From assembly GCF_026712185.1 (NCBI RefSeq), contig NZ_JAPPUX010000004.1:496001-560000 (forward strand): a DNA stretch of 64,000 nt. Reading direction: 5' to 3'. A model generated the notes under the pieces. It saw only the letters and a program-made list of their open reading frames with translations. It had not been told where the DNA came from and made no database searches. The position numbers and the translations under genes were made by a program. The DNA is from Nocardioides pini (GTDB lineage Bacteria > Actinomycetota > Actinomycetes > Propionibacteriales > Nocardioidaceae). Below are positions 7,980-55,560 of this stretch, piece by piece (positions within the stretch are counted from its first letter, which is position 1; each line of letters starts with the position of its first letter).

Positions 7980-9560
7980 TCAGCGGTGCTGCCGGCGCAG
8001 GCCGAAGGCCAGGCCGTCGACGAGCGCACCCCACGACGCCTCGATGACGTTGGCGCCGACGCCGACGGTGACCCAGGACGACTCCCCGTCGGTGGTCTCG
8101 ATGAGCACGCGGGTGATGGCGTCGGTGCCGTGGCCCTGGTCGAGGATGCGGACCTTGTAGTCGATCAGCTCGAACTTCGCGACCTCGGGGAAGGCCTGCC
8201 CGATCGCCTCGCGCAGCGCCGCGTCGAGGGCGTTGACCGGGCCGTTGCCCTCGCCGGTGACGACGTAGCGCACGCCCTCCGACCGCAGCTTCACGGTCGC
8301 CTCGGAGACGGCCTCGCCGTCGGTGCGGGTCTCGGTGATGACGCGCCAGGACTCGACGTCGAAGTACGACGGGCGCGCGCCCTCCACCTCCTCGGCGAGC
8401 AGCAGCTCGAACGAGGCGTCGGCGGCCTCGAAGGTGTAGCCCCGCTGCTCGAGCTCCTTGACCCGGTCGGTCACCCGCGTGACGAGGTCGCGGTCGTCGG
8501 ACAGGTCGTAGCCGAGCTCACGGCCCTTCAGCTCGATCGAGGCGCGCCCGGCCATGTCGGAGACGAGCAGGCGCATGTCGTTGCCGACGACGAGCGGGTC
8601 GAGGTGCTGGTAGAGGTCGGGGTCGACCTTGATGGCGCTGGCGTGGAGGCCGGCCTTGTGGGCGAACGCCGACGTGCCGACGTACGGCTGGCGCGACGCC
8701 GGCGGCACGTTGGTGACCTCGGCCACGGCGTGCGCGATGCGGGTCGCCTCGCGCAGGAGGCCCTGGGGCAGGACCGTGCGGTCGAGCTTGAGCTCCAGGT
8801 TGGCGACGACGGTGACGAGGTCGGCGTTGCCGGTGCGCTCGCCGTAGCCGTTGATGCAGCCCTGCACGTGCGTCGCGCCCGCGGCGACGGCGGCCAGCGA
8901 GTTGGCGACCGCGCAGCCGCTGTCGTTGTGGGCGTGGATGCCGACGCGGGCGCCCGTGGTCTCGAGCACGTCGAGCACGACGTCGGACACCCAGTCGGGC
9001 AGCATGCCGCCGTTGGTGTCGCACAGGGCGACCACCTCCGCGCCGGCCTCGGCCGCCGTGCGCAGCACCTCGAGGGCGTACGCCCGGTTGGCGCGGTAGC
9101 CGTCGAAGAAGTGCTCGGCGTCGAGGAAGACGGTCTGCCCCTCCTCGCGCAGGTGCGTGACCGTGTCGCGGACCATGGCGAGGTTCTCCTCGAGCGTCGT
9201 GCGCAGCGCGAGCTCGACGTGGCGGTCGTGGGACTTGGCGACGAGCGTGACGACGCCCGCGCCGGAGTCGCGGAGGGCGGCCACGAGCGGGTCGTCGGCG
9301 GCCCGTACGCCGGCCCGGCGGGTGGCGCCGAAGGCCGCGAGCCGTGCGTGGCGCAGGTCGAGCTCCTCGCGGGCACGGCGGAAGAACTCGGTGTCCTTGG
9401 GGTTCGCACCCGGCCAGCCGCCCTCGATGTAGCCCACGCCGAGGCCGTCGAGCTGCTTGGCGATGCTCAGCTTGTCGGCGACCGAGAGGTTCAGGCCCTC
9501 CTGCTGGGCGCCGTCGCGCAGGGTGGTGTCGTAGACGTGGAACGAGCCGTGCAGGTCCAT
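7980..9560 (-). CDS. cimA: (R)-citramalate synthase
   Basis: A 526-aa protein of the LeuA/CimA family. The N-terminal TIM barrel has the metal-binding DTTLRDGAQQEG motif (residue 10 on) and IHAHNDSGCAVANSLAA with the metal histidines. The C-terminal LeuA-type allosteric domain spans about residues 395-520. Citramalate synthase condenses pyruvate with acetyl-CoA and feeds 2-oxobutyrate, hence isoleucine, without threonine deaminase. The Ile-coding leader upstream supports an isoleucine role over leucine (2-isopropylmalate synthase). The start is the ATG at 9560; the Shine-Dalgarno sequence is weak. Confidence 0.9.
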   Translation of the reverse strand: MDLHGSFHVYDTTLRDGAQQEGLNLSVADKLSIAKQLDGLGVGYIEGGWPGANPKDTEFFRRAREELDLRHARLAAFGATRRAGVRAADDPLVAALRDSGAGVVTLVAKSHDRHVELALRTTLEENLAMVRDTVTHLREEGQTVFLDAEHFFDGYRANRAYALEVLRTAAEAGAEVVALCDTNGGMLPDWVSDVVLDVLETTGARVGIHAHNDSGCAVANSLAAVAAGATHVQGCINGYGERTGNADLVTVVANLELKLDRTVLPQGLLREATRIAHAVAEVTNVPPASRQPYVGTSAFAHKAGLHASAIKVDPDLYQHLDPLVVGNDMRLLVSDMAGRASIELKGRELGYDLSDDRDLVTRVTDRVKELEQRGYTFEAADASFELLLAEEVEGARPSYFDVESWRVITETRTDGEAVSEATVKLRSEGVRYVVTGEGNGPVNALDAALREAIGQAFPEVAKFELIDYKVRILDQGHGTDAITRVLIETTDGESSWVTVGVGANVIEASWGALVDGLAFGLRRQHR

Positions 9561-9602: not shown

Positions 9603-9629
9603 AAAAAAACCTCCTGGGGTGCAGGAGGT
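9603..9629 (-). terminator. intrinsic terminator of the cimA attenuator
   Basis: Read on the minus strand, an 8-bp stem (ACCTCCTG with CAGGAGGT) and a 5-nt loop are followed by seven T residues. It lies 43 bp before the cimA start and 26 bp after the leader peptide stop. A preceding hairpin (9629-9657) begins exactly at the leader stop codon. It pairs TAG/CTA, CGCG/CGCG and CGGG/CCCG, as a pause or alternative structure would. Confidence 0.85.
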
Positions 9630-9654
9630 AGGCGCGGCGGGGAGTCCCGTCGCG

Positions 9655-9684
9655 CTAGGCAATGATGATGGTGCTGATGGTCAC
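9655..9684 (-). CDS. isoleucine leader peptide of cimA
   Basis: A 9-codon open frame starting at GTG, with GAGG upstream as a possible ribosome site, encodes MTISTIIIA. Four of nine codons are Ile, three of them consecutive, and two are Thr. It is followed by an intrinsic terminator and then cimA. This is the arrangement of ribosome-mediated attenuation: low charged Ile-tRNA should stall the ribosome and prevent termination. The gene is too short to test by homology. The evidence is codon content plus position. Confidence 0.85.
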   Translation of the reverse strand: MTISTIIIA

Positions 9685-9766
9685 GACCTCATCGTGCCAC
9701 CGATCCGGCGCTCTTGAGACGGACGTCTCGGCATCCGGTCGGCGTCCGCTCGCCACCCGCGACGAC

Positions 9767-9926: not shown

Positions 9927-10961
9927 TCAGCCGATTGCGCGGTACTCCGTCCAGGCCAGCTGCATCCGGGCGGCCTGCCCGGCGGTGAACTGCGTCATGC
10001 AGGAGTCGTAGGTGTAGTCCATGAAGTTGGTGATCGGGTCGACTCCGCCACCGGCGCACGTGTCGCGCCCGACCGGGCACTGGAAGGCCGGCGAGGCCTC
10101 GGGCGCGGTGTCGGCGACGTAGTCGCCCGGCTCGGAGCACCCACCCTGGAACGTGTGGTAGAGCTCGAGCCAGTGGCCGACCTCGTGCGTCGCCGTGTCG
10201 CCCTCGCCGTAGGTCGCGTAGGCCCGGCTGTCGCCGGTGTCGTTGGGTACCGAGGGCAGCGTGCGGAAGTCGATGACCACGCCGTCGCGGTACCTCGGGA
10301 GCGGGTTGCCACCCGTGGCAGCGGGGTCGAAGTCGGACGGGAAGGTCGCCCAGCCGAGGAGCGACTGGCCCAGCGACGCCGAGTAGATGTTGAGGGTCTC
10401 CGTCGTGCTGTCGCCGTAGAGAGCCTGCTTCATCTTCATCTCCTTGCTGCTCCCTCGGAACCGCTGCGGCTCGGCCCCGTTGGGATAGATCATGTTGAAC
10501 CACTGGGGCTCGTAGGTGCGGGTGACCCGCTCGAGCACGAAGGAGAAGCCGTGCGGGGCGTAGGCCTCGTTGAGCACCCGGATCTGCTCGGCGATGCGGG
10601 CGTCGGAGAGGTCGCCGCCCTCCTGCCCGCGGTCCTTGGCGATCACGTGGAAGCGCACGGGGATGGTCACGGGCGCGAACGCGGCCGGTGCGGCCGCGGC
10701 ACCGGGCTTGCCCCGCGCGGACGTGCGCGCCGCCCGTGCGGACCTCATCGCCCCGGCCAGGGGGTCCTTGTGCACGACGTGGAGGTCGTCGCGCGGGATC
10801 GTGCCGGCGGGTGCGGCGGCGACGTCGCCGTAGTCGATGCAGTCGGTGGGCTTGTCCTTGGCCGGCGCGCCGGACGACGGCGTCGACATGCCCAGCCCGA
10901 GGGCCAGTGCAGTGACGGCGACGCCGAGTCGGCGTACGGCAAGGGTGCTGCGCAGGTGCAT
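9927..10961 (-). CDS. secreted zinc metalloprotease, M43 (pappalysin-like) family
   Basis: A 344-aa protein with a signal peptide (residues 1-32, cleavage near SSGAPA) and a pro-region of about 60 residues. The catalytic domain carries HEVGHWLELYH at about residue 260, followed by the Met-turn NFMDYTYDSCM. M43 proteases cleave extracellular proteins. The usual motif is HExxHxxGxxH. Here the glycine is a glutamate (DNA reads CTC GAG CTC), which is unusual since that glycine allows the turn before the third zinc ligand. All three histidines and the catalytic Glu remain. Cysteine pairs in the C-terminal third suit an exported protein. Confidence 0.87.
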   Translation of the reverse strand: MHLRSTLAVRRLGVAVTALALGLGMSTPSSGAPAKDKPTDCIDYGDVAAAPAGTIPRDDLHVVHKDPLAGAMRSARAARTSARGKPGAAAAPAAFAPVTIPVRFHVIAKDRGQEGGDLSDARIAEQIRVLNEAYAPHGFSFVLERVTRTYEPQWFNMIYPNGAEPQRFRGSSKEMKMKQALYGDSTTETLNIYSASLGQSLLGWATFPSDFDPAATGGNPLPRYRDGVVIDFRTLPSVPNDTGDSRAYATYGEGDTATHEVGHWLELYHTFQGGCSEPGDYVADTAPEASPAFQCPVGRDTCAGGGVDPITNFMDYTYDSCMTQFTAGQAARMQLAWTEYRAIG

Positions 10962-36439: not shown

Positions 36440-36481
36440 TCAGCTCACGCGTCGCGTGCGTACAAGAATCTCGGTGCGCAT
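36440..36481 (-). CDS. ilvB leader peptide (Ile-Leu-Val)
   Basis: A 13-codon frame encoding [13 protein letters not shown], with consecutive ATT CTT GTA codons for Ile, Leu and Val. CTT and GTA are rare codons in such GC-rich DNA, which favours stalling. Leaders of very similar sequence precede ilvB in Streptomyces and mycobacteria. With the terminator at 36380-36413 it forms a multivalent attenuator of ilvBNC. The region 36482-36588 upstream holds the promoter and no gene. Confidence 0.9.
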
Positions 36482-55389: not shown

Positions 55390-55415
55390 TCGACAGCGAT
55401 GGTGATAAGACGCGT

Positions 55416-55560
55416 CGAGGCGGGTGTTCCGGCTCGCACGGGATCGCTCCCGTGCCCACGGTTGCGGGTCAGCGTCGGTTTCGGACCGACTTTCCCCACC
55501 TCGGGCGTGTGTGGTGCCGACCCGGTCGGGTGCGGCGAGCGCAGCCTAGCCCCGCCTCGG
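55416..55560 (-). ncRNA. cobalamin (AdoCbl-type) riboswitch
   Basis: On the minus strand the highly conserved elements occur in order. A P1 stem CGAGGCGGG (55551-55559) pairs with CCCGCCTCG (55416-55424). A GGGGAAAGTCGGTCCG region follows, with hairpin GTCGGT/ACCGAC. The B12-box is GACCCGCAACCGTG (55457-55470). A peripheral stem GCACGGGA/TCCCGTGC precedes the 3' signature GAGCCGGAACACCCGCC (55419-55435). It sits 90 bp before the toroid gene and heads the ECF operon. Confidence 0.93.

Follow-up and report, generated by a model that had tools for sequence, protein, structure and literature searches.

The 64,000-nucleotide stretch of Nocardioides pini DNA analyzed here (the window) raises the question of whether its citramalate synthase gene, cimA, is under the control of an attenuator that senses isoleucine and, if so, how such an attenuator would switch. 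Enterobacterial trp, his, and ilv attenuators carry codons for the pathway product in a leader peptide, with an intrinsic terminator 3′ of it. A sequence-only reading of the window had placed before cimA a leader with three consecutive Ile codons, a hairpin at its stop codon, and an 8-bp terminator with seven T residues. All of these parts were found on the minus strand, with GTG as the start codon of the leader:

9691..9696, minus strand: predicted -10 hexamer CACGAT with TG ahead (TGG-CACGAT), 6 nt 5′ of the leader GTG
9684-9655, minus strand: leader ORF GTG ACC ATC AGC ACC ATC ATC ATT GCC TAG, encoding VTISTIIIA and a stop, conserved in relatives
9678-9676, minus strand: fourth Ile codon (ATC) of the cimA leader
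9661..9669, minus strand: control codons ATC ATC ATT, three consecutive Ile codons inside the cimA leader ORF
9655-9632, minus strand: P1 hairpin GCGCG-a-CGGG / CCCG-c-CGCGC, proposed antiterminator on the basis of folding, compensatory changes, and masking geometry
9629-9609, minus strand: T, intrinsic terminator hairpin ACCTCCTG / CAGGAGGT, 8 bp with loop CACCC, 2 bases after P1
9609-9603, minus strand: U-tract of T (T7), its first T paired
7980..9560, minus strand: cimA, citramalate synthase, ATG at 9560, assigned by TIGR00977 and domain matches

The cimA product scored 652 bits against TIGR00977 (cut-off 450) and matched PF00682 (HMGL-like), PF22617 (HCS_D2), and PF08502 (C-terminal LeuA allosteric domain). 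The 5′ arm of P1 begins 5 nt past the last Ile codon, and its first base is the G of TAG. Folding of the RNA from 9690 to 9595 gave both hairpins, along with weak pairing across the leader; the whole fold, at -35.2 kcal/mol, had z = -4.1 relative to dinucleotide shuffles and was equaled in stability by 0 of 200 of them. A covariance model of 54 copies (53 relatives and the window copy) had its only convincing match in this genome at cimA, with a score of 67.4 bits and E 4e-15 within that genome; the next-best match in the same genome reached 17.5 bits (E 0.58). An Rfam search at gathering and permissive thresholds placed no model at its gathering score over the element, where just two plus-strand matches were seen (E ~0.3, well under their gathering scores), and the element lacks the curated Rfam aptamer match that would mark a T-box or riboswitch. 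Elsewhere in the window, a cobalamin riboswitch (Rfam RF00174, 35.1 bits, gathering 31.5) lies at 55402-55517 on the minus strand. The terminator before cimA is notable because predictions of intrinsic terminators in Nocardioides are few (30; PMC2965389).

Comparison with other genomes was anchored on the cimA gene (TIGR00977) rather than on the leader. Of 197 genomes sampled evenly from the class, 150 had a TIGR00977 match above the cut-off, and upstream DNA was compared at 148 of these loci, excluding the window's own locus and one truncated gene and keeping one locus (L128) with a short upstream stretch of 282 bases. Under a first rule, calling a short ORF with at least two consecutive Ile codons and a nearby stop, leaders were found at 94 of the 148 loci (including L176, which is probably false), versus 13 on the reverse complement and a mean of 4.7 (max 10) in shuffles. 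Runs of at least three Ile codons occurred at 23 of the 148 loci, at none on the reverse complement, and in shuffles at 0.14 on average (max 1). Ile was the sole residue with such an excess of runs over the opposite strand. A second rule, calling a U-tracted hairpin with an Ile-containing leader ORF 5′ of it, gave elements at 100 of the 148 loci and in 27 of 33 families. Both rules called 88 loci, at least one rule called 106 (one probably false), and neither called 42. The second rule also found 48 elements in 78 further sequences (the window and 77 of 80 loci, with the partial cimA matches L055, L073, and L077 excluded), or 148 of 226 overall. The covariance model score and the recurrence of this design before cimA across most of the class sample together place the window element beyond chance.

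The Ile-codon attenuator of cimA put forward in the sequence-only reading is supported among close relatives, as Ile codons, hairpin, and terminator recur at named Nocardioides and Nocardioidaceae loci (L014, L006, and L008). The accompanying test of conservation among relatives came out in its favor, with the Ile leader extending far beyond the family. The element is nonetheless not universal, and the 42 class loci without it include 4 of 13 in the window's own family by both rules. Leaders were also missing by either rule at 14 of 14 loci of family f18, among them L098, L114, L116, and L117, and at 14 of 15 loci of family f26, whose fifteenth locus is the probable false match L176. At one named locus without a leader, from a metagenome-assembled genome (L031), a family search of this locus alone put cimA directly 3′ of ilvE. 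The absence of leaders before cimA may in part reflect operon position. Two Nitriliruptoria cimA loci (L068:75-158 and L070:2265-2357) have leaders ending in TIIIRPLP and IGIIRLLP before the stop, with a hairpin over the stop codon and no U-tract by eye; these are possibly Ile leaders that work differently.

Codon choice in the leaders differs from that in the genes they precede. Run Ile codons in the 100 class leaders were ATT 140 times, ATC 72 times, and ATA 0 times. At 47 named leader-bearing loci, the leaders used ATT 63 and ATC 43 times versus 17 ATT, 721 ATC, and 3 ATA in the cimA genes, and background trinucleotides upstream numbered 101 ATT, 399 ATC, and 60 ATA. The third base was T in 125 of 207 leader Ile codons versus 47 of 460 other leader codons, and all of these codon counts come from related lineages and imply no exact probability. 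The rarely used ATT codon would presumably slow the sensor. The window leader is less biased toward ATT, with ATC, ATC, ATC, and ATT. In 12 of 100 automatically called leaders, the last run was just one Ile codon, and single-Ile leaders are seen in family f9 (CITT, LITH, CITT, and CITP at L107, L115, L119, and L128), where P1 and T are kept. Because the residue immediately before the Ile run is Leu or Val in 49 of 100 leaders (some V are GTG and maybe starts), sensing is perhaps not purely Ile everywhere, and in some lineages it may extend to other branched-chain amino acids.

The leader had initially been described as an Ile-Thr peptide. Its Ile half holds up in the excess of Ile, but Thr is not conserved: just 46 of 100 leaders have it within six residues ahead of the Ile run. 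Runs of two Thr codons numbered 29 forward versus 11 reverse across the 148 loci, and Thr was rejected as a second sensed residue. The proposal that CimA serves the isoleucine route gains support from the excess of Ile, given that sibling leaders before ilvB and leuS carry Leu and Val codons instead. The same genome also holds a threonine-deaminase candidate over its cut-off, and no Ile leader was apparent by eye in 370 bases before its ilvA.

Sequence upstream of the leaders suggests where transcription would start. In 82 of 101 elements, a [TC]ANNNT hexamer lay 6-8 nt 5′ of an in-frame start, versus a mean of 8.4 (max 15) in a shuffled upstream control, and the hexamer nearly always had TG just ahead of it. 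When the start was chosen by the hexamer, the last Ile was codon 7 or 8 in 76 of 92 hexamer-bearing leaders. The cimA leader of the window is predicted to be translated leaderless from a transcript starting at ~9684, and no convincing -35 of its predicted promoter was seen by eye. This prediction agrees with the ilvB, leuS, and leuA leaders of S. lividans, which are mapped as leaderless (PMC8079986). Where mapped, in C. glutamicum and S. lividans, ilvB leaders are leaderless.

The two hairpins keep a characteristic spacing. The distance from the 3′ end of P1 to T was 0-2 nt in 90 of 100 elements (shuffle mean 21, max 26) and 0 nt in 73. Measured from the last Ile codon, the 5′ arm of P1 began at 3-7 nt in 77 of 100 (shuffle mean 28, max 39) and at 3-9 nt in 94 of 100. 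Both spacings (3-7 and 0-2 nt) were present in 73 of 100 elements, compared to a mean of 5.2 (max 9) after shuffling the intervening sequence. Loop length of P1 ranged from 3 to 66 nt, and the leader stop codon fell anywhere from immediately past the last Ile codon to 30 nt farther. Thus the Ile-to-P1 and P1-to-T distances are constrained while the others drift.

Pairing in both hairpins was examined in an alignment of 54 copies, comprising 42 class loci (no more than three from any family), 11 hand-picked named loci, and the window. In these copies, which were selected by run length and spacing and exclude long-loop Streptomyces copies, 106 cells of P1 and T changed on both sides versus a shuffled mean of 26.6 and 8-19 in slid controls, and 94.4% of cells were paired versus 44-61% when slid. 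Three P1 pairs are invariant and so are uninformative on covariation. No third conserved helix or antiterminator overlapping T was found among ungapped 4-bp helices in the same columns of at least 30 of 54 copies; those passing this test were only P1, T (with shifted T registers), and pairings of a G-run with the U-tract. When the 3′ arm of T was omitted from the fold of 101 copies, P1 invaded the 5′ arm of T by 0 bases in 29, 1 base in 10, 2 bases in 35, and at least 3 bases in 27 (max 6), and in family f19 and similar copies P1 can be extended six bases into T. The conserved point of the P1/T arrangement is the missing linker.

We estimate a probability of about 80% that the cimA element is a ribosome-mediated transcription attenuator sensing charged Ile-tRNA. 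It combines two properties expected of an attenuator, namely a conserved short ORF with a run of end-product codons and, from sequence, an intrinsic terminator between this ORF and cimA. Comparison of sequences shows conservation of the leader with its Ile run, of P1 and T and the distances between these parts, and of the -10 spacing, as well as covariation within P1 and T. What we infer is the polarity set out below, that P1 blocks T by abutting it, that initiation is leaderless, and that Ile is what the cell senses. Transcription would begin at the leader GTG or no more than a few bases away from it, with a ribosome predicted to load straight onto the 5′ end. With Ile-tRNA charged, the ribosome would reach the stop codon and its leading edge would cover the 5′ arm of P1. 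P1 would be prevented, T would form behind the polymerase, and transcription would stop before cimA. With Ile-tRNA scarce, the ribosome would wait at the Ile codons and leave the 5′ arm of P1 largely free. P1, formed flush 5′ of T almost without a linker, would then stop T from closing to the U-tract, and cimA would be transcribed. Such a block of T closing to its base would act at the polymerase exit.

The geometry of this switch was modeled with a ribosome whose leading edge lies 11 nt beyond the A-site codon, in keeping with the 26-nt footprint of PMC13236596. Counting only the contiguous outer P1 helix and excluding 8 of 100 elements in which P1 is unusually placed (n = 92), mean masking of the P1 5′ arm rose from 24% at the first Ile codon through 66% at the last to 100% at the stop. 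Masking of the arm was complete in 91 of 92 elements with the ribosome at the stop, in 9 of 92 with it at the last Ile codon, and in none of the 92 with it at the first. Because P1 is masked at the stop and free at the first Ile codon, it is the structure that Ile stalling would permit and hence the candidate antiterminator. The switch would work most cleanly with the ribosome at the opening codon of the Ile run, as the arm is already 66% masked at the last. Experiments on related attenuators bear on this kind of mechanism from both sides. In M. tuberculosis, changing LVVI to AAAA in ilvB1 abolishes induction (PMC13236596), which supports the kind of mechanism, and mutants of C. glutamicum ilvBNC support adjacent terminator and antiterminator hairpins with one trinucleotide in common (PMC11857589), the closest published mechanism that we found. 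Counting against it, altering codons of the ilvB leader in S. coelicolor reportedly left regulation unchanged (as cited in PMC1262725). The Leu or Val next to the Ile run, the leaders whose last run is a single Ile codon, the 42 class loci without the element, and the lack of a good -35 by eye in the window also weigh against an Ile-sensing attenuator.

Within this reading, the part assigned to P1 is the less secure: we consider it an even wager that P1 is the blocking antiterminator. P1 and T have no bases in common in the window copy and could coexist thermodynamically, which speaks against the proposed steric block by abutment. Nested within the attenuation reading is a variant in which the same Ile sensor operates with P1 as a pause or protector hairpin, like segments 1:2 in the leader of trp, while readthrough depends on an unrecognized, lineage-specific antiterminator. 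Classical attenuators carry a separate antiterminator, and this variant would also accommodate the coexistence of the hairpins and the copies, as in family f19, whose P1 extends six bases into T. Weighing against it are the lack of a third conserved helix in the 54-sequence alignment and the constraint on the spacing of P1 to both the Ile codons and T while its loop is free. We regard this variant as rather unlikely.

Two further explanations would do without transcription attenuation. The hairpin pair could be the terminator of the upstream M43-peptidase-like gene (9927-10961), which lies on the same strand as cimA and ends ~240 nt ahead of the leader, making the Ile ORF incidental. That leader and terminator recur before cimA in 27 of 33 families (a comparison leaving out upstream genes), that a -10-like element sits between the peptidase-like gene and the leader, and that Ile runs exceed controls all make this extremely improbable. 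Slightly less so, although still very improbable, is that Ile stalling acts after transcription by altering mRNA stability or translation of cimA rather than termination. A U-tracted terminator is conserved between leader and cimA, and cimA starts ~40 nt beyond the U-tract, where the alignment ends. Termination controlled by a ribosome translating Ile codons remains our preferred reading.

Elements of similar design precede other genes, including one in the same window (both features by eye):

36440..36481, minus strand: ilvB leader, sibling element with control codons ATT CTT GTA
36413-36385 (approximately), minus strand: terminator abutted by a P1-like hairpin of ilvB, with U-tract at 36385-36380

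In 61 genomes of the window's family, the covariance model had a match at E 0.05 in 51, most of them not assigned to genes. Among 19 weaker matches from this family, 14 were before leuS, 4 were before ilvB, and 1 (L259) was without gene assignment. Across 149 genomes of the phylum, 41 had a match at E 0.001. Twenty matches examined from outside the class had ilvB (13), cimA (2), leuA (1), or leuB-type genes (2) downstream, with L273 and L278 left unassigned. For ilvB, the gene was directly downstream in 7 (L267, L269, L270, L271, L274, L279, and L285) and behind another gene in 6 (L272, L275, L276, L277, L281, and L282). At L277 and L282, the scaffold has a Val-rich leader and is followed by an isochorismatase-like gene (by eye) and then ilvB; the L277 gene product matched no NCBIfam family at 1e-20. 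The two cimA matches outside the class have four Ile codons in a row (L268 and L280, the latter leader by eye), and the leuA match has an LLL leader (L266). L283 and L284 carry, within their first 150 bases in match orientation, VIII and VVII leaders before leuB-type 3-isopropylmalate dehydrogenase genes (NF002898 over cut-off), and these Ile and Val codons hint at a role outside leucine synthesis.

Sibling leaders read LVLI, LLL, VIII, and so forth according to the gene, with no leader by rule in 9 of 38 stretches. Control codons were Leu before leuS and leuA, Leu/Val/Ile before ilvB, and Ile before cimA. From these sequences, the codons follow the downstream gene while the scaffold is constant. 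The bias toward A/U-ending codons was weaker in ilvB/leuS-type leaders (46 of 108 run codons versus 24 of 108 others). A broader possibility, which we advance tentatively and at less than even odds, is that Actinomycetota use one modular two-hairpin scaffold for cimA, ilvB, leuS, leuA, and leuB. It would consist of a leaderless leader, control codons ~5 nt before P1, and P1 flush against T, with codons varying by gene (the Ile codons of cimA biased to rare ATT) and a steric switch at the polymerase exit without a separate antiterminator.

The closest known systems are the actinobacterial ilvB (ilvBNC/ilvBHC) attenuators of C. glutamicum, S. lividans/S. coelicolor, and Mycobacterium, which similarly have a short ORF with branched-chain codons, hairpins, a terminator, and an amino-acid gene downstream (PMC8079986, PMC11857589, PMC13236596, and PMC1262725). 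The likeness extends to the window's own ilvB, which has one, and to the ilvB copies found by the model built on cimA. The present element differs in controlling cimA, in its Ile-centered run, and in that P1 and T in the window lack the common GCC trinucleotide of the C. glutamicum model (PMC11857589). Actinobacterial leuS attenuators share a run-bearing leader, hairpin, and terminator and are leaderless in S. lividans (PMC8079986), but they have Leu codons, a tRNA-synthetase target, and P1 arms resembling GCCGCG/CGCGGC, as opposed to GCGCG/CGCGC at cimA (by eye). For leuA, the actinobacterial LEU element has been described as a pseudoknot and the leader in S. lividans as having no typical terminator (PMC8079986), whereas the cimA element has a terminator and two successive hairpins. 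Relative to the enterobacterial trp, his, and ilv attenuators, it has a predicted leaderless start and no conserved T-overlapping antiterminator was found. We found no published cimA attenuator in the accessible parts of a literature mostly outside subscription journals and without supplements (including PMC4046766, PMC12452182, and PMC13158618). Of the eight S. lividans leaders that PMC8079986 lists in its main text, none precedes cimA, and the words citramalate and cimA are absent from that main text and from the accessible text of PMC1262725.

A widely conserved, Ile-centered attenuator of cimA appears to be real on the strength of these comparisons. It joins the known actinobacterial leader-peptide attenuators, and the two-hairpin abutment switch is its more interesting part. 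If true, the citramalate route to isoleucine would be under Ile-centered attenuation in much of the class, and the leaders would provide independent genomic evidence that these TIGR00977 proteins serve isoleucine synthesis. The alignment makes it testable how actinobacterial attenuators switch without a conserved terminator-overlapping antiterminator, a long-unclear point, and the covariance model can be used to annotate branched-chain and leuS leaders in the phylum. The element is also a possible target for deregulating flux through the isoleucine pathway in Streptomyces and relatives.
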